Source of the DNA: a virus
IMG/VR virus record: IMGVR_UViG_3300032223_001457
Coordinates: 1-25,585 of that record
Reading direction: 5' to 3' (one strand)
DNA: 25,585 nt
A program made the position numbers and the translations under genes. A model generated the notes under the pieces. The model made no database searches and was not told where the DNA came from. It was given only the letters and a program-made list of their open reading frames with translations. Positions 601 to 15,500 of this stretch are shown here, in pieces (position 1 is the stretch's first letter; every line of letters starts with the position of its first letter).

Positions 601-840
601 TTATTTGTCTTCATCAGGCATTTTGGCGAAGGCTTCATTAATCTCGGCAGTATCTAGTTTGCCATCCTTGAGGTAAGCCCGTGCTAAATCTTCAGCGATT
701 ACAGAAATACCTGTAATTGAAGCCAGCAACGCAGTCTTCCAAACCTCTATTCCTAGAATTGAGCCAGCACCCAAAACTCCCATTACACTTGCGATGATGA
801 CCGCGACCATACGGCGAAAAACATCAGCGAAAATTTTCAT
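601..840 (-). CDS. Holin-like protein, r1t type (79 aa)
   Basis: Start ATG at 840, nine bases after the stop of the M23 endopeptidase gene. Two hydrophobic helices (about residues 10-30 and 34-50) surround a short polar turn containing GAGSILGIEVWKTAL, followed by a charged tail with DGKLDTAEINEAF. This layout (two membrane helices, 'K.AL.A...' second helix, then D/E-K-rich tail with EIN.AF) matches small r1t-like holins of Gram-positive phages as I know them. A holin forms membrane lesions that release the endolysin; its place directly after a cell-wall hydrolase supports this. The 55-aa protein at 1382-1549 is a competing holin candidate. Confidence 0.65.
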   Translation of the reverse strand: MKIFADVFRRMVAVIIASVMGVLGAGSILGIEVWKTALLASITGISVIAEDLARAYLKDGKLDTAEINEAFAKMPDEDK

Positions 841-848
841 TATTATCC

Positions 849-1310
849 TTAAACTTCAAATCCGTTTAGACCAGATTGAATAAGCGGAAGCGGGTCAACA
901 ACAGCACTTGAAGCCAAGTGTCCAGCAACGCCAGCCATAAAGTGAAGGTGAGGACCAGAAGATGCACCAGAATTACCTGACTTACAAATCTCTTCGCCAC
1001 CCTTAACTTTGTCGCCCTTCTTCAAAGCAGGTTGCTTGTCCAAGTGACAATACGCAAAGTGCATAACCTTTGGCTTACCGTCAACTAAAACATAAGCGGT
1101 CTGTTCAATGACCCATCCAAGAATTTCTGAATGATAAACATCGCTAACAGTTCCATTACCAATAGCCTTCAAAGAAGTTCCAACTGGAACAGTAAAATCT
1201 AATCCACGGTGAGGACCAAGACCCATTGCCTTGCGTTGAGCAGACAAAGTGCCAAAGTGGTCATTAATAGTTTTTTCTGGAGCGGGCCAGAAAGTTTTTA
1301 GAGCAACCAT
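849..1310 (-). CDS. M23 (LytM-type) endopeptidase, probable endolysin (153 aa)
   Basis: The protein has the M23 metal-site pattern: H34 and D38 in HRGLDF, H89 in YCHLD, and H121/H123 in GPHLHF, with the usual 'G.SG.SSGPHLHF' surround. M23 enzymes are zinc peptidases that cut peptide cross-bridges of peptidoglycan. There is no signal peptide, so release would depend on a holin, consistent with small membrane proteins on both sides. The domain fills nearly the whole protein and there is no separate wall-binding module. ATG at 1310 has GAAAGGA 5 bases upstream. A distinct promoter-like element lies at 1334-1380. Confidence 0.88.
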   Translation of the reverse strand: MVALKTFWPAPEKTINDHFGTLSAQRKAMGLGPHRGLDFTVPVGTSLKAIGNGTVSDVYHSEILGWVIEQTAYVLVDGKPKVMHFAYCHLDKQPALKKGDKVKGGEEICKSGNSGASSGPHLHFMAGVAGHLASSAVVDPLPLIQSGLNGFEV

Positions 1311-1333
1311 AATATTCCTTTCAGTTGTTCTCT

Positions 1334-1380
1334 TCTATGGTCGCAGATAGCAAATTGCAACCAACAAAAAACACGCCGAA
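1334..1380 (-). promoter_or_regulatory. Candidate lysis-block promoter/operator, copy 1
   Basis: The minus strand reads CGGCGTGTTTTTT, about 20 bases, then TGCGACCATAGA (plus-strand tctatggtcgca near 1334-1345), then the ribosome site of the M23 gene. The same 12-mer recurs exactly before the PA14 gene. It is unlike the TATACT promoters of the accessory genes. A GCTATCT just before the 12-mer could serve as a -10. Role is inferred from position and repetition. Confidence 0.4.
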
Positions 1381-1381
1381 A

Positions 1382-1549
1382 TTAGTCTTTAGGGTTACGA
1401 ATAGAAAAAGACACAATCCAAATTACGGTTGACGCAATAATCAGCCAGCCCACAACTTGTTTAGCCGAACCTTCTAAAACAATCCACGCAACAAACAAAC
1501 CTACAAGAGTCCAAATTTGTCCAAGGATATCGGAAAAAAACTTTTTCAT
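1382..1549 (-). CDS. Two-helix membrane protein, holin candidate (55 aa)
   Basis: ATG at 1549 has a strong ribosome site (TGGAGGAAAGAA) and overlaps the stop of the upstream 40-aa gene (ATGA). The product starts MKKFFSDILGQIW and has two hydrophobic stretches (about residues 10-26 and 32-48) separated by the polar EGSAKQ, ending in a basic/charged tail. Size, two helices, charged end and position just before the M23 hydrolase fit a holin or a holin partner. No family is recognised from sequence alone. Too short for most gene callers' default. Confidence 0.6.
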   Translation of the reverse strand: MKKFFSDILGQIWTLVGLFVAWIVLEGSAKQVVGWLIIASTVIWIVSFSIRNPKD

Positions 1550-1668
1550 TTCTTTCCTCCACGAATTGTTTTAACAATTGTAATTAGAGTGATTGAGATA
1601 GATGCGACAACAATGATTACCGTGAGGCTATCAATTATTTGACGCATTACTAATTCGCTTATGGTCAT
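1546..1668 (-). CDS. Single-pass membrane peptide (40 aa)
   Basis: ATG at 1668 overlaps the stop of the PA14 gene (TAATG), and its own stop overlaps the start of the next membrane protein (ATGA), so the three are translationally coupled. Residues about 14-33 (LTVIIVVASISITLITIV) form one membrane helix; the C-terminus is basic (RGGKK). Its last codons encode the ribosome site of the next gene. It may be a holin accessory or antiholin, but only topology and location support this. Confidence 0.5.
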   Translation of the reverse strand: MTISELVMRQIIDSLTVIIVVASISITLITIVKTIRGGKK

Positions 1669-3122
1669 TATTTATTCTTTCTAATAGAGGTTGTTGATGC
1701 AGAAGTGGTAAGTGATACCGTGGCGGCAGTGGTCGCTATTTGAGTAACAATAACTGCCGAAACTAAAGTCTTTTTTGCTTTTGCTCTAACTGCTGGAGAA
1801 ATATCTGCACCAATATTTCCAACAAAGTTAATAGAATCCGTCAACGCTCCCGCAACATTTCCAATCAAAGGGATGCTTGCGATAGCAGGGTCAAGTTGAA
1901 TATCGTCTGCTTGAGCAGCCACAAACAATTGGTCAAGGGCTTTTTGATATTCAGGTGAACCTTGTTCACTGGTCGCTAAAGTTTCATTAGCCACCGATAC
2001 AAGTTCTGCAACTTCAGCCACCGTCAAAATTGACGCATCAATTTGAGCAGGGTCAATCTGAGTGAAACTTGGTTGAGGCTTTGAAACAACAGGGTCACTT
2101 ACAGGTTGGTCAACAGGAGGAGTCACAGAAGGCTCATCAGTAGGTTTTGGAGCAGGGTCAGGTGTAATAGGGTCAACTACTGGCGGTTGAGGCACTGGCG
2201 GGTCAATTACAGGCGGTTTTGGAGGTATAACTGGCGGAACGACAGGAATAGTGCCTGTAACAATATGAATTGAATCAGAAAATTGTGAATAAACAGGGAT
2301 TGAATCATTGTCAGACCTGACCGTGAAAGTTATGTCAGTGTTTTCAGGCAAATTAGAAATTGTTGCTTTTGTATCTGAAGCACTAATACCCCAACCGTCA
2401 GCACCTCCATAAGTCCAAGAAACAGCGTAATGTTCAATTGGATATAAAGATTCAGGTGCATCCCAAGTTAAGTTCACAGTTGTTGCATCAATTAATTTTG
2501 CTTGCACATTGACTGGAGCAGGTAACGATGGAATTACAGGAATAACTGGAACATCAGTTTTGGTGTAAGCGGATGCGGGAACTGAAATCCATTGACCGTC
2601 TTGAATTGAGTAAAGTGTGCTACACGCTCCTCCACCGTATTCATAAAACCACGCATCAAGTTTTTGCGGAACGCCAGCAACAAAATCGTGTTGAACTTGT
2701 GAACCGCTACAGCCTTTCAAAGTCCAATCATTGATTACAGGTTCACCGTCAAGTGTCATATAAAAACCATCATCAGCCATTGCCATTAGCGTTGCCGTTT
2801 CAGTTTTATCCCAAGTTATGTAACCTGAATAGTGAAGTAAAACAAAATCTCCGCGACATCCTGCAACTATGCCACCATATTCAGCGTCAAAATTAGCGTT
2901 AATTGAATCAACAGAAGTCCACGCTGTATCGGTAATCGTTGAACACAAATCATATTTTGCTTCGTGGTCAGGTGTTGAAGAAGAATCATAAACATAAACT
3001 TCTACCGTCAAACCTGATACTGATTCTGCTGAAGCAGATACAACAAAACCTAAACTCATCCATCCCGCGATTAAAGCAATCACAGCAAGTTTAGATAATT
3101 GTTTTATTTGTTTCGCAGTCAT
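1668..3122 (-). CDS. Secreted PA14 / fibronectin-III surface protein (484 aa)
   Basis: The likely start is the ATG at 3122 (MTAKQIKQL), giving a classical signal peptide: KLAVIALIAG core and ASA-E cleavage near residue 32; the upstream in-frame ATG at 3167 would add 15 unhelpful residues. Domains in order: a PA14-like beta domain (about residues 35-185, with the ADDGFYMTLDG...INDW signature), a fibronectin type III domain (about 200-290, 'PAPVNVQAK...TVNLTWDAP'), a proline-rich spacer (about 295-355), a helical region, and a C-terminal hydrophobic segment (about 450-475) with a basic end. PA14 and FN3 domains commonly bind carbohydrate or surfaces. The gene heads the lysis block and is coupled to small membrane proteins. 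It may be a host-surface or lysis accessory; it looks like a host-derived cell-surface gene. Confidence 0.75.
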   Translation of the reverse strand: MTAKQIKQLSKLAVIALIAGWMSLGFVVSASAESVSGLTVEVYVYDSSSTPDHEAKYDLCSTITDTAWTSVDSINANFDAEYGGIVAGCRGDFVLLHYSGYITWDKTETATLMAMADDGFYMTLDGEPVINDWTLKGCSGSQVQHDFVAGVPQKLDAWFYEYGGGACSTLYSIQDGQWISVPASAYTKTDVPVIPVIPSLPAPVNVQAKLIDATTVNLTWDAPESLYPIEHYAVSWTYGGADGWGISASDTKATISNLPENTDITFTVRSDNDSIPVYSQFSDSIHIVTGTIPVVPPVIPPKPPVIDPPVPQPPVVDPITPDPAPKPTDEPSVTPPVDQPVSDPVVSKPQPSFTQIDPAQIDASILTVAEVAELVSVANETLATSEQGSPEYQKALDQLFVAAQADDIQLDPAIASIPLIGNVAGALTDSINFVGNIGADISPAVRAKAKKTLVSAVIVTQIATTAATVSLTTSASTTSIRKNK

Positions 3123-3123
3123 A

Positions 3124-3172
3124 CATCTATGGTCGCAAACATTTTTTTTAAAAATAAAAAAACACACCGATA
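3124..3172 (-). promoter_or_regulatory. Candidate lysis-block promoter/operator, copy 2
   Basis: The minus strand carries CGGTGTGTTTTTTT, then about 18 A/T-rich bases, then TGCGACCATAGA ending two bases before the ATG at 3122. The 12-mer is identical to that at 1334-1345, and the T-rich upstream half is similar. There is no good Shine-Dalgarno before the start codon, so the element may act as operator or promoter for a very short leader. Confidence 0.4.
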
Positions 3173-3202
3173 AAAAAGACCCCCCACTTCTTGTGGGGAG
3201 TC
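3172..3202 (-). terminator. Intrinsic terminator after the gene at 3216-3614
   Basis: On the minus strand GACTCCCCAC pairs with GTGGGGGGTC around an AAGAA loop and is followed by TTTTTTATC. The stem begins 14 bases after the stop codon of the upstream gene. It separates the accessory operon from the lysis block. Confidence 0.85.
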
Positions 3203-3215
3203 TGGGGAATGATGT

Positions 3216-3614
3216 TTAGTCCATACGCGACCTATAACCAACATCATTGAAACCGTATTTACGATAAACGCCAACTACGGCTTTCATCGCGGCTTCTTTT
3301 CGTTGCATTGACTGGCTACGGTCATTCGGCAAGAATTCACTTGACCAAACTGACCAACCACCGTAGTAGTCTTTGTAACCCAACTTCTTGGAACGAAGCC
3401 ATCGCGGTAACGCACCACGACCATCTCCAAAGTTGACCCACGCAAAACCACAAACACCGTCAGCCACAAACCACATTTCCTTGGAAGGGTCAACATCATT
3501 TCCTAAAGGAGATGATGGCGAACCCACAACCATTGGAACTGGTTGAGCATCAACGAACGCTTTTTGAGCGGCTACTTGAGCCTCCTCAAAAACTGCCTGA
3601 TAATCAATCTTCAT
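3216..3614 (-). CDS. Hypothetical protein (132 aa)
   Basis: The start is placed at ATG 3614 (MKIDYQAVFEEAQ), because GAGAGGAGGTGAAA lies immediately upstream and the in-frame ATG at 3638 sits inside the untranslated leader just after the -10 box. Residues about 1-20 look helical; the middle has aromatic, glycine-rich stretches (DGVCGFAWVNFGDGRGALPRW) and the end is basic. The motif 'CGFAWV.F..GRG....WL' is reminiscent of small phage proteins of unknown role; I do not recognise a named family. It is a single-gene unit with its own promoter and terminator, which suggests independent expression. Confidence 0.7.
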   Translation of the reverse strand: MKIDYQAVFEEAQVAAQKAFVDAQPVPMVVGSPSSPLGNDVDPSKEMWFVADGVCGFAWVNFGDGRGALPRWLRSKKLGYKDYYGGWSVWSSEFLPNDRSQSMQRKEAAMKAVVGVYRKYGFNDVGYRSRMD

Positions 3615-3642
3615 ATTTTCACCTCCTCTCTCCCACATAACC

Positions 3643-3676: not shown

Positions 3677-3856
3677 TTAGCCGTGATTCTCGCAGTTCGC
3701 AATCGCTGAATCTTCTGTAGTGTAATGCGACCAGCAATCATAAGGGCTTGCAGGTCGCGTAAAGTAAGCAACAGCAAACGCAAAAATAAAAATAAAAATT
3801 ACTGCAACAAGGATAAAACCTAAACGATTTTTACGATTAAGGAGTTGTATTAACAA
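3677..3856 (-). CDS. Single-pass membrane protein with paired cysteines (59 aa)
   Basis: The frame runs from a TTG at 3856 (inside the end of the NlpC/P60 gene, 20-base overlap) to TAA at 3677. The product has a basic N-terminus (LLNRKNRLG), one membrane helix (about residues 13-31, very rich in F, I and V), then an outward tail beginning RPASPYDCW and ending ANCENHG, with two cysteines 16 residues apart. No ATG or GTG start is available, so the TTG start is the weak point. The same layout appears in the protein at 4832-5008. Function unknown. Confidence 0.5.
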   Translation of the reverse strand: MLIQLLNRKNRLGFILVAVIFIFIFAFAVAYFTRPASPYDCWSHYTTEDSAIANCENHG

Positions 3857-4373
3857 TTCTCACAAACCTAACTTGACTATTTTTGTAGTCATTCAATGAT
3901 TCAATTACCGTGGTCCGATAATAACTATTTGCATTTAAAACTTTGTTATTTCCAACATAGATACCTGAATGGTAAAAACTTTTTGAACCTTGATAAGCAA
4001 AAACAACTACATCGCCTAACCGTGGAGTGTGAACACGATAACCAAGATGAGCCTGAGCGTTTGCAGAATGAGGAAGTTCAATACCAAACTTTTGATAAGT
4101 CCATACAACCATTCCAGAACAATCCCAACCGTGAGTTGAAACACCTGAAAAAACATATGGAGTGCGATTTACGCGAGATTCTAAATATTTGATGATATGA
4201 ATCATCGTTGATTGATTGTGTCTTGTTCTTAATTGTTCATTAAAAGACAAATGTTTTACATCAGATAAAACAATTTTTGATTTTTGTAATTCACCGTGAG
4301 CAGATGCAGAGCAACTTACCAAAAGTAAAATTGCAGATAAAGCAACAACAAATTTTTTATTAAAGAAAGTCAT
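3837..4373 (-). CDS. Secreted NlpC/P60 peptidoglycan hydrolase (178 aa)
   Basis: The N-terminus is a signal sequence (basic NKK, hydrophobic FVVALSAILLLV) ending in a lipobox-like LVSC (C21) or in an ASA-H site at residue 25/26, so the protein is exported and may be a lipoprotein. The C-terminal NlpC/P60 domain (about residues 55-175) shows the catalytic Cys in WDCSG (C85), His in YHSGIYVG (H135) and a polar third residue near N147. Such enzymes cut peptide stems of peptidoglycan. Unlike the M23 enzyme it carries its own export signal, so it could act without a holin. ATG 4373 overlaps the metallopeptidase gene by 14 bases. Confidence 0.85.
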   Translation of the reverse strand: MTFFNKKFVVALSAILLLVSCSASAHGELQKSKIVLSDVKHLSFNEQLRTRHNQSTMIHIIKYLESRVNRTPYVFSGVSTHGWDCSGMVVWTYQKFGIELPHSANAQAHLGYRVHTPRLGDVVVFAYQGSKSFYHSGIYVGNNKVLNANSYYRTTVIESLNDYKNSQVRFVRIVNTTP

Positions 4374-4707
4374 TAGTCAACCATTCCGTTAGTTCTGGGT
4401 TTTCTTTTAAAACTGCTAGAAGCCCATTATCCCACATTCCAATAAAGTGATGCTCCCAATCTTCGTATTCATCCTCCCTTCTTGGTCTATTCAGTCCGTC
4501 AGTGGTCATACGAATAGAGTGAAGTATTTCGTGTAAAACTGTGACTTGTTTTTTTGTTATCGGAATGTCGCGTTGCAAAATAATAAGATTGCCTGACGCA
4601 AGCGTGTAGCCATAACAGCCGTCATTTAACATTCCATCTTCTAAAACAGAGCGTTCTACAATCGTGTAGCGTTCTGCCCCAATTTTGATGGACTTAGGAA
4701 TCTTCAT
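4360..4707 (-). CDS. HExxH zinc metallopeptidase-like protein (115 aa)
   Basis: The zinc-binding motif HEILH is at residues 59-63, within VTVLHEILHSI, preceded by a beta-rich half (GCYGYTLASGNLIIL) and followed by an acidic helix (DEYEDWEHHF) that could supply a third ligand, then 'LLAVLKENPELTEWL'. This layout matches small phage metallopeptidase-like proteins related to the ImmA/IrrE or SprT type folds. ImmA-type proteins cleave Cro/CI-like repressors; a Cro-like gene lies three genes upstream (5189-5410), so a repressor-cleaving role is possible but unproven. ATG 4707 overlaps the preceding stop (ATGA). Confidence 0.7.
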   Translation of the reverse strand: MKIPKSIKIGAERYTIVERSVLEDGMLNDGCYGYTLASGNLIILQRDIPITKKQVTVLHEILHSIRMTTDGLNRPRREDEYEDWEHHFIGMWDNGLLAVLKENPELTEWLTNDFL

Positions 4708-4835
4708 TCTTCAAGTCTAAAACCTTCTAGCGTGAAAACATCTTGACACGACATACAGGCTTCTGCACAGGTATTACAAGGCATTTTAGGGTCATTGAAA
4801 CACCAAGGACACCCGCAATCATATTTTTCAGTCAT
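4704..4835 (-). CDS. Cysteine-rich peptide (43 aa)
   Basis: ATG 4835 overlaps the stop of the upstream gene and its TGA (4706-4704) overlaps the next ATG. The 43-residue product has seven cysteines: C7, C9, C12, C20, C23, C27 and C30, followed by an acidic tail (TLEGFRLEE). The spacing suggests one or two zinc sites, or a disulfide-rich knot if exported, though no signal peptide is visible. No family recognised. Tight coupling on both sides supports it as a real gene. Confidence 0.55.
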   Translation of the reverse strand: MTEKYDCGCPWCFNDPKMPCNTCAEACMSCQDVFTLEGFRLEE

Positions 4836-5008
4836 TGATTTTTCCATTCTTGAATCACTTTACCTGAGCAAATTAAGGCAGAGCCGTTACCGTGAGGATT
4901 CTGATATCCAACAGTTTCGCAATCAGAATTGTTTGGCAAAAAGAAATAAATAATTGTGAACAACAATAAAGCCAAACTGACAATCAACAATTTTAGTTCT
5001 TTATTCAC
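4832..5008 (-). CDS. Single-pass membrane protein with paired cysteines (58 aa)
   Basis: The frame starts at GTG 5008 inside the end of the upstream gene, with AGAAAGAA upstream, and stops at TGA 4834-4832 (overlap with the next ATG). The product is MNKELKLL, a membrane helix (about residues 5-24), then a short outside tail with NSDCETVGYQNPHGNGSALICSGKV, i.e. two cysteines 16 residues apart. Size and topology mirror the protein at 3677-3856, although sequence identity is low. Together they flank the hydrolase and metallopeptidase genes. Function unknown. Confidence 0.55.
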   Translation of the reverse strand: MNKELKLLIVSLALLLFTIIYFFLPNNSDCETVGYQNPHGNGSALICSGKVIQEWKNQ

Positions 5009-5192
5009 TTGGTTCTTTCTGGTCTAAAAGACTTGCATATTTTGTGTCAACAACATTTCCAAAATACACAAAATCTAAAATTTCGCGATACATATTGCAT
5101 TGAGGACAATATTTACTTCCGCGACAGCCCCAATGCGAATTTATTTTGAATTGAACAAAGTCAATGATTTGACTGACCGTGGATTTACTCAC
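5001..5192 (-). CDS. Hypothetical protein with CxxC (63 aa)
   Basis: Starts at GTG 5192, which overlaps the TGA of the Cro-like gene (GTGA). The product has a helical N-terminus (VSQIIDFVQFKI), a central HWGCRGSKYCPQCNMY with three cysteines (C-x6-C-x2-C) and a charged C-terminus. This could hold a partial zinc site. It is part of the overlapping chain that runs from about 6347 to 3677. I do not recognise the family. Confidence 0.6.
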   Translation of the reverse strand: MSKSTVSQIIDFVQFKINSHWGCRGSKYCPQCNMYREILDFVYFGNVVDTKYASLLDQKEPSE

Positions 5193-5410
5193 TTGATAGC
5201 CCCAATAGCCTTTAATAGTTCTTCAGGCGATACTTTGAGTGCCTTGCACAGTTTTCCCACCGTGTTGGATGGAATTTGGCGTTGACGATTAAAGTATCTG
5301 CTCAAACTTGATTTAGGCATTTTTATTGCTTCAGCAAATTGAGTTAGCGAAGGATAACCAAGAGCCTCATATTTTGAAACAAACCAATCGTATGTTTTAT
5401 TTTTAGCCAT
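5189..5410 (-). CDS. Cro/CI-like (XRE) helix-turn-helix regulator (73 aa)
   Basis: The start is set at ATG 5410 (MAKNKTYDWF), 9 bases after AGGAG; the in-frame ATG at 5419 abuts AGGAG with no spacer. The protein is one helix-turn-helix domain: SLTQFAEAIKMPKSSLSRYFNRQRQIP (helices 2 and 3, about residues 22-45) and NTVGKLCKALKVSPEELLKAI (helices 4 and 5). XRE proteins bind operator DNA as dimers and act as phage repressors or Cro. Only the DNA-binding domain is present, so it is Cro-sized. Its operators are not evident; the inverted repeat at 10608-10646 is one candidate. Confidence 0.85.
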   Translation of the reverse strand: MAKNKTYDWFVSKYEALGYPSLTQFAEAIKMPKSSLSRYFNRQRQIPSNTVGKLCKALKVSPEELLKAIGAIK

Positions 5411-5699
5411 TCTTTTCATCTCCTAATGAAGCGTTCGCAACTGCTTTTAAAACTTGTGGATGATTTTTATTTATTGCCGTGAGCAAATCTATAAAAGCAT
5501 CTGACAAAGTTGATTTCTTTTCAAGGTGCTTTACCAAAGCCAGTGATGTCAAACGAATGATTCTGTCTTGCTCTTCTTGTTCTGCCTGTTTAGCACCGTC
5601 AAGCAATATCTTGACTAAAACATTCTGACAGTCAACGCAAGAATCACACTTACCTTCCCAGTGAGCCTTGGAGATGTTATCTGGTTTTTTTCTAAACAT
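5403..5699 (-). CDS. Hypothetical helical protein (98 aa)
   Basis: ATG 5699 lies inside the end of the upstream membrane-protein gene with GGAGGAAATA directly upstream. The N-terminal third holds three cysteines (KCDSCVDCQN), the remainder is predicted helical and charged, ending in KAVANASLGDEKNG. The last codons of this gene encode the ribosome site and start of the XRE gene, which couples their expression. No recognised family; the cysteines might form a metal site. Confidence 0.65.
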   Translation of the reverse strand: MFRKKPDNISKAHWEGKCDSCVDCQNVLVKILLDGAKQAEQEEQDRIIRLTSLALVKHLEKKSTLSDAFIDLLTAINKNHPQVLKAVANASLGDEKNG

Positions 5700-7134: not shown

Positions 7135-8010
7135 CTAAAACAGTTCTGGTCTATCTTTTTTCCACTGAGCCATCTCTCTGAGATAGTTAGCAACCTTTTT
7201 CTCAACCTTGACCTTCACAGCCTCACGCTCTTCCTCAACGCTCACACCGTGTTTGAAAGCCAAAGCCTCAAGCAACTGCTCCAAAGCAATCAACTCAAAA
7301 GGCTTACGAGCCTGATACTGATTGTTTTCAGGGTCAACCTCATACAACTTCAAAGCCATCATCACATCAACCGCCATAATAGAAGCAGAACGCTCAGATT
7401 TGATAACTTCATCCCACTTGCCACCGTTGACATTCACACGAAGAACAGAACCGTCAGGATTCTTGATTCCAGATTTCTCAGCCTTCTCAGCCTTCTCACG
7501 CTTCTGCTGTTCACGCTTCTCGCGGGCTTCAATCACCTCGCGTGGCTCTAACACTGACTTACGAGCCAAATACTCACTAGGAGCGTTTGGATAACAAATT
7601 GAACAGGCTTTCTCACCTGCCGCCTTGATAATTTCCATTTCATCACGGTCAGACCAGTCAGGCAACCACGCAAAACGAGTTGACGGATAACAACTCACGC
7701 AATCCATTGACTTGTGAATGTGTCCATTTGAATTCTGAACCCAAAAACAACGATTCCAGCCCTCATACTGAGCATCCAAGTCCTTGACGACCTGCAAAAC
7801 CGCATTTTTGTCTTCCAAAGCGATTTCATAATCTTTTTTCAACTTCTCAAGTTGATTTACATAATAAACAAGCCCTTTATCTGCATAAACTTGGAAATTC
7901 TTGATATCGCGAGCAATCAAATCCAAGTGAAGTCTTTTACTCCAAAGCAGTTCATAAGCCTCAGAAATCTTGTTGTCCAACTCAACTGGGTCAACTTTCC
8001 AATTTCCCAT
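7135..8010 (-). CDS. Actinophage conserved hypothetical with zinc-like Cys/His motifs (291 aa)
   Basis: The start is ATG 8010 (MGNWKVDPVEL), placed by GGAGGTGGTGG just upstream and by the promoter at 8057-8030; the longer frame from 8100 would begin upstream of the promoter. An N-terminal coiled coil (about residues 10-75) is followed by 'WNRCFWVQN.NGHIHKSMDCVSCYPSTRFAWLPDWSD' and 'GEKACSICYPNAPSEY', a pattern I know from many actinophage and actinobacterial proteins of unknown function, with Cys/His pairs likely to bind zinc. A lysine/glutamate-rich coil follows (EKREQQKREKAEKAEK). Probably cytoplasmic; role unknown. Confidence 0.8.
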   Translation of the reverse strand: MGNWKVDPVELDNKISEAYELLWSKRLHLDLIARDIKNFQVYADKGLVYYVNQLEKLKKDYEIALEDKNAVLQVVKDLDAQYEGWNRCFWVQNSNGHIHKSMDCVSCYPSTRFAWLPDWSDRDEMEIIKAAGEKACSICYPNAPSEYLARKSVLEPREVIEAREKREQQKREKAEKAEKSGIKNPDGSVLRVNVNGGKWDEVIKSERSASIMAVDVMMALKLYEVDPENNQYQARKPFELIALEQLLEALAFKHGVSVEEEREAVKVKVEKKVANYLREMAQWKKDRPELF

Positions 8011-8029
8011 AACCACCACCTCCATTTCC

Positions 8030-8057
8030 AGTATAGCGGAATAAAGCACCGTGTCAA
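8030..8057 (-). promoter_or_regulatory. Promoter for the gene at 7135-8010
   Basis: TTGACA (8057-8052), 16-base spacer, TATACT (8035-8030), then GGAAATGGAGGTGGTGG. It is the best sigma-70-like promoter in the window and begins immediately after the terminator at 8059-8090. Confidence 0.8.
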
Positions 8058-8058
8058 C

Positions 8059-8090
8059 AAAAAAACCCCACTTTTTAAGGTGAGGTTTTT
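8059..8090 (-). terminator. Intrinsic terminator after ssb
   Basis: AAAAACC.CAC (8061-8071) pairs with GTG.GGTTTTT (8080-8090) with one mismatch and an 8-base loop; the minus strand continues with a T run. It ends the recombination operon 17 bases after the ssb stop. Confidence 0.8.
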
Positions 8091-8106
8091 CTGCTAACAA
8101 GGAAGG

Positions 8107-14675: not shown

Positions 14676-15500
14676 CTATGCACGGTCAAACAGAATTTGC
14701 CATTCAGCAAATCCTACACGACCAGTCACCCTTAAACCGTGTTTAACTTGTAATTCGCGAACTGCTCGCAAAGTTTCAACACCAAAACGCGAAGTTGTTG
14801 GAATATTGTAGCCCAAACATCTCATCGCAGATTGCAAAGCCCTAACTCTCGGTCCAGCGTGTCCAGAAGCAATACGAATATGAAACTTAGGAATAATGGC
14901 TTGCCAAGTTCCCCAATCAACATAACCAGTTTCAGCAATACCCATTCTGGTTTGATAATATTTCACAGCGTCAGCAGAATCCTGACTGAAATATTCCATA
15001 TCTTCCACCGTCACGCCCACAAATAAATTAATAAACTTTACATCCAACCCACGACTTCCAAGTTTTAATTCACGCGAACCAGCCTTAGCGTTGCTATCTA
15101 AAACATTTTCCTCAACATCAGGTTTGATTTCATCTAAGAAGTTTTGATTAAAAATAAACCAATCATCAATTTGAGTAAAACCCCATTCAGCGATTTGTTC
15201 TGCTACGGATGTAAAACTAGGGATGCGAAAAGCCAAGCCCAAGCGAACATTAGCATCTTCGGATTCTTCAGTCCAACCGTCAAGAAGCACAGGAAAAGGG
15301 CGAGATTGATAGTAGTCATTATCGGGCAAGTCATTTCTCTTAAATTCCACACCGTTATCCAAAGCATAAGTCAACAATTCTTCAACATATTGTTGAATTC
15401 TGATGTGAACAAAAACTCTGGCATCACCTACAATTACACGGCGAATAAACTTTTGGCGGAAGGATTTAGCGTTAGGGTCGCCCCACAAAATATCTGTCAT
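14676..15500 (-). CDS. Peptidoglycan-binding protein with two PGB domains (274 aa)
   Basis: Two peptidoglycan-binding type 1 repeats are visible: 'GSRGLDVKFINLFVGVTVEDMEYFSQDSADAVKYYQTRMGIAETGYVDWGTWQAI' (about 146-202) and 'GHAGPRVRALQSAMRCLGYNIPTTSRFGVETLRAVRELQVKHGLRVTGRVGFAEWQIL' (about 213-271). The first 130 residues may be a degenerate M15-type carboxypeptidase fold ('RLGLAFRI', 'EWGFTQIDDWF'), but the expected H-x6-D and final His are not present. It could be a wall-binding virion part or an inactive lysin. It has its own promoter with almost no leader and no ribosome site. Confidence 0.75.
   Translation of the reverse strand: MTDILWGDPNAKSFRQKFIRRVIVGDARVFVHIRIQQYVEELLTYALDNGVEFKRNDLPDNDYYQSRPFPVLLDGWTEESEDANVRLGLAFRIPSFTSVAEQIAEWGFTQIDDWFIFNQNFLDEIKPDVEENVLDSNAKAGSRELKLGSRGLDVKFINLFVGVTVEDMEYFSQDSADAVKYYQTRMGIAETGYVDWGTWQAIIPKFHIRIASGHAGPRVRALQSAMRCLGYNIPTTSRFGVETLRAVRELQVKHGLRVTGRVGFAEWQILFDRA

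Follow-up and report, generated by a model that had tools for sequence, protein, structure and literature searches.

On the minus strand of a 25,585-base virus contig (the window, that is, the whole stretch analysed), seven genes overlap one another in a single run (5419-3677, -), in the order XRE regulator, CxxC protein, membrane protein, seven-Cys peptide, HExxH metallopeptidase, NlpC/P60 enzyme, and membrane protein. What does a phage do with an exported peptidoglycan hydrolase packed between tiny membrane proteins and putative regulators, and do these products work together?

The gene run and its virus

The run begins with an XRE/Cro-type helix-turn-helix (HTH) regulator of 76 aa (5189..5419, -; PF01381 (HTH_3), 1.9e-9), followed by a small Cys protein with the sequence CRGSKYCPQC (5001..5192, -), the membrane microprotein 'CE', with one transmembrane (TM) helix and a predicted outside C-x-x-V-x-YQ(N/D)...C segment with two Cys (4832..5008, -), and a 47-aa peptide whose sequence holds exactly seven Cys and is zinc-ribbon-like (4704..4847, -). 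Next come a small HExxH (HEILH) metallopeptidase of 115 aa, DUF6782/M78-like and assigned to PHROG 1233 (4360..4707, -), a predicted exported NlpC/P60 endopeptidase whose signal peptide ends in a lipobox-like LVSC (3837..4373, -; PF00877, 3e-20), and the membrane microprotein 'CW' (3677..3856, -), which has a TTG start, one TM helix, and a predicted outside CWSHYTTEDSAIANCE hairpin with two Cys. As the preliminary description had it, all seven features are present on the minus strand with consecutive genes overlapping, from XRE to CW by 4, 8, 16, 4, 14, and 20 nt. The last gene of the run, with no assigned function (3216..3638, -), is followed by a strong terminator-like hairpin (3177..3203, -; 11-bp stem, MFE -21.9 kcal/mol, z = -3.9), which divides the run from a lysis-like cassette encoding a PA14-fn3 protein, TM proteins, an M23 peptidase, and a two-TM holin-like protein (601..3167, -). 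Given the gene overlaps and this intrinsic terminator, a single transcript for the run is plausible.

All recognised genes of the contig, whose G+C content is low (~40%), lie on the minus strand, with the tail genes followed by those for DnaB, RecT, HNH, and SSB, then the seven-gene run, and finally the lysis-like cassette. The window found no match in a DNA-level search among named phages. It carries a WhiB gene (PF02467, 2.4e-4, just under the cut-off), which, together with the presence of WhiB in 38 of the 45 contigs searched (window counted in), indicates Actinobacteria as the hosts. The whiB gene is also carried by the first two isolated phages of Nanopelagicales (PMC10202952). The sequence points to an actinophage-like fragment, for which the low-GC freshwater order Nanopelagicales is a likely but unproven host candidate, and the hosts of viruses carrying the gene set are probably freshwater Actinobacteria. 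Beside the tail genes, 14676-15500 (-) encodes a protein in which peptidoglycan-binding domains (PF01471) occupy two stretches and which may be a third wall-directed product of the same phage; for the protein of 7135-8100, no relatives were confirmed in IMG/VR.

Six of the seven run genes have relatives in other viral contigs, the exception being the CxxC protein (5001-5192), for which, as for the product of 3216-3638, none were found in related viral contigs. A gene-neighbourhood survey, which the preliminary description had suggested, recovered the set elsewhere in pieces: four run families recur as one another's neighbours or fusions, while the whole set in one run was found, among the contigs examined, in this window only. 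The genetic linkage is solid, and the earlier view of an envelope-directed set with an exported peptidoglycan hydrolase and small membrane proteins is supported to the extent that it recurs in pieces. The seven-Cys peptide has one relative, L114 3697-3957, in which the Cys region is joined to an acidic EQxRI coil; since both parts occur there in one protein, the window peptide may be a detached zinc-ribbon-like N-terminus. Small proteins with a G-x-EQER-II coil are encoded one or two genes upstream of CW in approximately half of the 118 loci listed, and window 5403-5699 (-) matches this coil family (E = 3.8e-4).

CW, CE, and the NlpC/P60 enzyme

A search with the HExxH protein brought up viral contigs, and CW was first noticed there, directly downstream of the HExxH gene, as a one-TM protein with CWxxY..E..AI..CE. 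As CW had no stretch of sufficient conservation for a profile search and a single-protein search retrieved only the query itself, a degenerate DNA coding pattern for the motif was chosen instead, which matched at least 119 stretches in IMG/VR and none in 84,980 GTDB genomes. The IMG/VR matches listed comprise at least 113 distinct TM proteins, sharing an architecture of one TM helix and a predicted outside CWxxYxTExxAIxxCE hairpin. Positive net charge is greater on the N-terminal side in 111 of the 113 CW proteins listed, predicting an N-in/C-out orientation, and the hairpin should therefore lie outside. The window protein has 58 aa, with a predicted disulfide-type hairpin of roughly 20 aa. 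The median dN/dS of ~0.15 among CW relatives indicates real, constrained proteins, and purifying selection is evident from dN/dS in all three families. Both the regular expression and the DNA pattern demand the Cys pair, whose conservation is thus partly built in; the sole variant with a diverged hairpin, found by HMM (L033), keeps both Cys.

CE is a sister family to CW, with ~15 relatives. The two membrane proteins had been called twins, and two one-TM, two-Cys proteins do flank the set, but they are not paralogous; that idea was rejected, as CE and CW are distinct families that are joined in tandem in other phages. The TM-CE-CW tandem fusion is found in at least eight distinct proteins (L090 and L120, CW-only proteins that match the CE HMM, were left out of the count), and CW followed by CE as overlapping genes in L033, L041, L074, and L109. 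No significant match to either family was obtained in Pfam, PHROGs, or NCBIfam, the PADLOC models matched nothing in the run save weak generic HTH matches for XRE, and the CE-CW protein is absent from the named phages searched. For the CW and CE families, and for their shuffling with an exported phage hydrolase, the libraries searched gave no match. Hsp20-like, thioredoxin-like, Dps-like, GroES-like, and glycosyltransferase-like families, as judged by eye, recur around CW.

Enzymes of the NlpC/P60 class serve cell separation in mycobacteria. The window NlpC scores 72.6 bits against PF00877 (gathering cut-off 23), and in an alignment of 32 relatives the catalytic Cys and His are invariant, with the third triad position occupied by Asn in 25, His in six, and Asp in one. 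Given this invariance, and given that the third position varies among polar residues across the superfamily, catalytic activity of the phage enzyme is plausible. The third-residue His is retained in a branch from contigs without CW found in the locus (L002-L006, L046, L047) and occurs also in L120 and L131. The window enzyme is probably exported as a lipoprotein; a strict lipobox expression matched 15 of 44 NlpC relatives, with several more near misses, and the remainder have a plain signal-like N-terminus. It resembles RipC/MepS, the best NCBIfam match being RipC (4e-16, far below the RipC cut-off). Because its relatives in GTDB genomes are domain-level only (identity <=44%), it looks like a member of a phage subfamily.

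CW and NlpC are fused in both orders. The SP-NlpC-CW form occurs in L104/L142, which represent the same gene on contigs G001 and G039, and separately in L054, placing the NlpC-first order in two lineages, whereas L166 has the opposite order, TM-CW-NlpC/P60. Every arrangement puts the hairpin outside, consistent with the topology predicted for free CW (111/113 listed), and no fusion of CW to any other enzyme is found among the 115 motif-first loci listed. In the NlpC tree, the window adjoins the L104 fusion (support only 81/70), L054 and L166 lie elsewhere, the latter in a clade having NlpC and CW as separate overlapping genes, and fused or adjacent forms occupy about three separate parts. An XRE gene directly follows the fusion in L104/L142 with a 4-nt overlap; at least there, XRE, NlpC, and CW travel together. 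In a model of the L104 fusion, pLDDT is mostly >90 for the enzyme and 50-64 for the hairpin, a low-confidence result that is uninformative on docking.

Separate genes also adjoin repeatedly. Among the 91 distinct motif-first loci listed, an overlapping gene immediately upstream of CW encodes the HExxH protein in 10 and NlpC in five (overlap 4-14 nt), and NlpC is fused to CW in four; one or two chance adjacencies of each kind would be expected by a rough estimate, made without a formal test, from about a dozen genes per locus and in-locus counts of 21 and 27. The HExxH gene overlaps CW by 4-28 nt in 25 of the 32 HExxH-first loci, many of which are near-identical. In L064, L126, L175, and L181, the HExxH gene is followed 105-113 nt later by NlpC and, ~0.7 kb after, by a holin-like gene. 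Whole-contig searches detected NlpC relatives (41-60% identity) in 30 of 49 related contigs; for the HExxH protein the count was 21 of 45. Neither these counts nor that for XRE given below measure prevalence, since the contig sets overlap and were partly picked by HExxH or NlpC matches. Many CW genes are kilobases away from NlpC and close to replication genes. In a few large contigs only one of the two was detected, CW in G009, G016, and G017 and NlpC, with no CW motif, in G002 and G014. Cassettes like that at 601-3167 recur in many related contigs, coming after HExxH/NlpC genes in several; the recurring parts are a PA14/fn3 or Pro/Thr-rich protein (N-terminus variable, C-terminal stretch conserved), a 55-aa TM protein, a two-TM holin-like protein, and an M23 peptidase.

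The HExxH protein, XRE, and the ImmA-ImmR comparison

The AlphaFold model of the HExxH protein (pLDDT 91.5) has viral IrrE/SprT-like fold neighbours, a PDB fold search gave nothing at E<=0.001, and the best sequence match of a solved structure is IrrE (E = 0.023). PF06114 (M78) matches 15 of 20 family members weakly (best 7.4e-5), the window protein having no match at E<=1; the DUF6782 profile also matches the family weakly, and named phages yielded three weak matches. The protein may be assigned, remotely, to the ImmA/IrrE kind.

The preliminary description was reminded by the HExxH/XRE pair of ImmA-ImmR repressor cleavage. On the model of ImmA-ImmR, known from ICEBs1, the locus would be a lysogeny switch with an XRE repressor cleaved by the HExxH protease. 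As in that system, one run encodes both an XRE protein and a small HExxH peptidase, here one that is remotely similar to M78/IrrE. Unlike in ImmA-ImmR, the pairing is not conserved: XRE relatives (42-61% identical) occur in only 8 of the 49 related contigs, the XRE gene lies three genes away from the HExxH gene in the window and adjoins it in none of the loci examined, and the recurring genetic partner of the HExxH gene is the membrane gene CW. Moreover, XRE here is a bare 76-aa HTH without a further domain, and no integrase was recognised in the window. The comparison was hence rejected on neighbourhood, despite the remote likeness of the peptidase, and a switch of this type is considered highly improbable.

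A candidate envelope-modification cassette and its alternatives

Membrane-protein control of NlpC/P60 enzymes has precedents in Actinobacteria: RipA is directly activated by the extracellular domain of SteB in Corynebacterium, RipC is held and activated by FtsX in M. tuberculosis, and the NlpC/P60 enzymes of mycobacteria stay autoinhibited until something activates them (PMC10694151). Like SteB-RipA and FtsEX-RipC, the set described here appears to combine an NlpC/P60 endopeptidase that is exported with a membrane protein bearing an outside domain. Unlike them, it is phage-encoded, the partner has 58 aa and a predicted ~20-aa disulfide-type hairpin, and no FtsE/FtsX-like or SteA-like gene was recognised in the window; the likeness of CW to such regulators would lie in the outside hairpin and the genetic fusion to NlpC/P60. 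On this precedent, CW and CE are proposed as positioning or activating hairpins, and the fusions and co-translation argue that hairpin and hydrolase share a target outside the membrane.

The reading that we favour, at a probability of about 0.45, is an envelope-modification cassette of actinobacterial phages, in which membrane-borne accessory hairpins position or activate an exported peptidoglycan endopeptidase. The NlpC/P60 enzyme, probably a lipoprotein and, judging from its conserved residues, presumably active, would cleave the stem peptides of peptidoglycan on the outside of the membrane and so complement the products of the neighbouring M23 and holin-like genes. CW and CE, by their predicted topology, would each use one TM helix to anchor a small disulfide-type hairpin at the outer face of the membrane, and this hairpin would be a hydrolase partner module working in cis (fused) or in trans (with its own anchor), so that the wall is cut at the right place and time. 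The HExxH peptidase, predicted to be cytoplasmic and in many phages translated together with CW or NlpC, might keep the module under proteolytic control, with XRE regulating its transcription; the substrate of the former and the target of the latter are guesses.

This cassette reading is favoured because the CW-NlpC fusions, in both orders, all have the hairpin outside and no other enzyme is fused to CW among the motif-first loci listed, because NlpC-CW and HExxH-CW overlaps recur and NlpC is present in over half of the related contigs, because CE and CW are repeatedly fused, because all three families are under purifying selection, and because NlpC sits between HExxH and holin-like genes in four loci. 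It is weakened by the frequent distance of CW from NlpC and the lone occurrence of either in some contigs, as well as by the poorly modelled hairpin and the minority of NlpC relatives with a strict lipobox. Lysis cassettes of Gordonia phages also have endolysin and small TM protein genes side by side (PMC9671378). The window shares this adjoining of peptidoglycan hydrolase and small membrane proteins with actinobacteriophage lysis cassettes; unlike in those, its hydrolase has its own predicted export signal, a separate M23/holin-like cassette is present, and the TM proteins, unlike holins, carry a conserved two-Cys hairpin predicted to lie outside.

Superinfection exclusion, with CW and CE blocking DNA entry at the membrane and the exported NlpC/P60 altering the wall against re-adsorption, would suit one-TM proteins with a small outside domain that are often encoded near replication genes and, for CW, occur only in viral contigs (the IMG/VR pattern matches listed, with none in GTDB genomes); an arms race might explain why the hairpins are joined in tandem and shuffled. 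Superinfection-exclusion lipoproteins/membrane proteins such as Ltp of TP-J34 are likewise phage-encoded with a small membrane-anchored outside domain. CW and CE had no family match in the libraries searched, however, and a near-invariant motif and strong purifying selection (dN/dS ~0.15) speak against exclusion. A hydrolase fusion would be unexpected for a DNA-entry blocker, we know of no counterpart to NlpC-CW among exclusion proteins, and NlpC adjoins lysis genes in several phages, all of which makes exclusion unlikely.

The autoinhibition of the mycobacterial enzymes allows the opposite role for CW, namely a brake that binds NlpC/P60 outside the cell and keeps it inactive until the late phase, when removal of CW, perhaps by the co-encoded protease, frees the enzyme. 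That HExxH, NlpC, and CW are translated together in the window fits this scheme, but a permanently fused brake would require an extra release step, and the HExxH protein is predicted to be cytoplasmic while the hairpin lies outside; we regard the brake as quite unlikely. That the run is only a packing of unrelated small accessory genes, with overlaps reflecting genome compression, is suggested by its completeness in this window only and by the CxxC and 3216-3638 products without relatives; this reading is disfavoured as improbable by fusions in both orders and repeated adjacency of four families.

Returning to the cassette reading, NlpC/P60, the small HExxH protein, and XRE are of known kinds, and what is proposed is that a phage here brings along an NlpC/P60 hydrolase together with membrane proteins that control it. 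Most of what is known about phages of the abundant freshwater Actinobacteria comes from sequence, and no description of how they open or alter the envelope was found in the literature searched. The CW-NlpC fusion in some relatives suggests that a wall-cutter and tiny membrane proteins work together at the bacterial surface. More tentatively, CW and CE might constitute a new, widespread class of phage membrane microproteins with a mobile outside hairpin, a plug-in module that regulates or targets the peptidoglycan hydrolases which phages export, as a counterpart of the host SteB/FtsX circuits. If the proposal is right, two new microprotein families would be named in over a hundred phage contigs, with a testable hypothesis for CW and CE, the control of an exported wall hydrolase, and they would provide minimal modules, 20 residues long, with a possible role in regulating NlpC/P60 enzymes.
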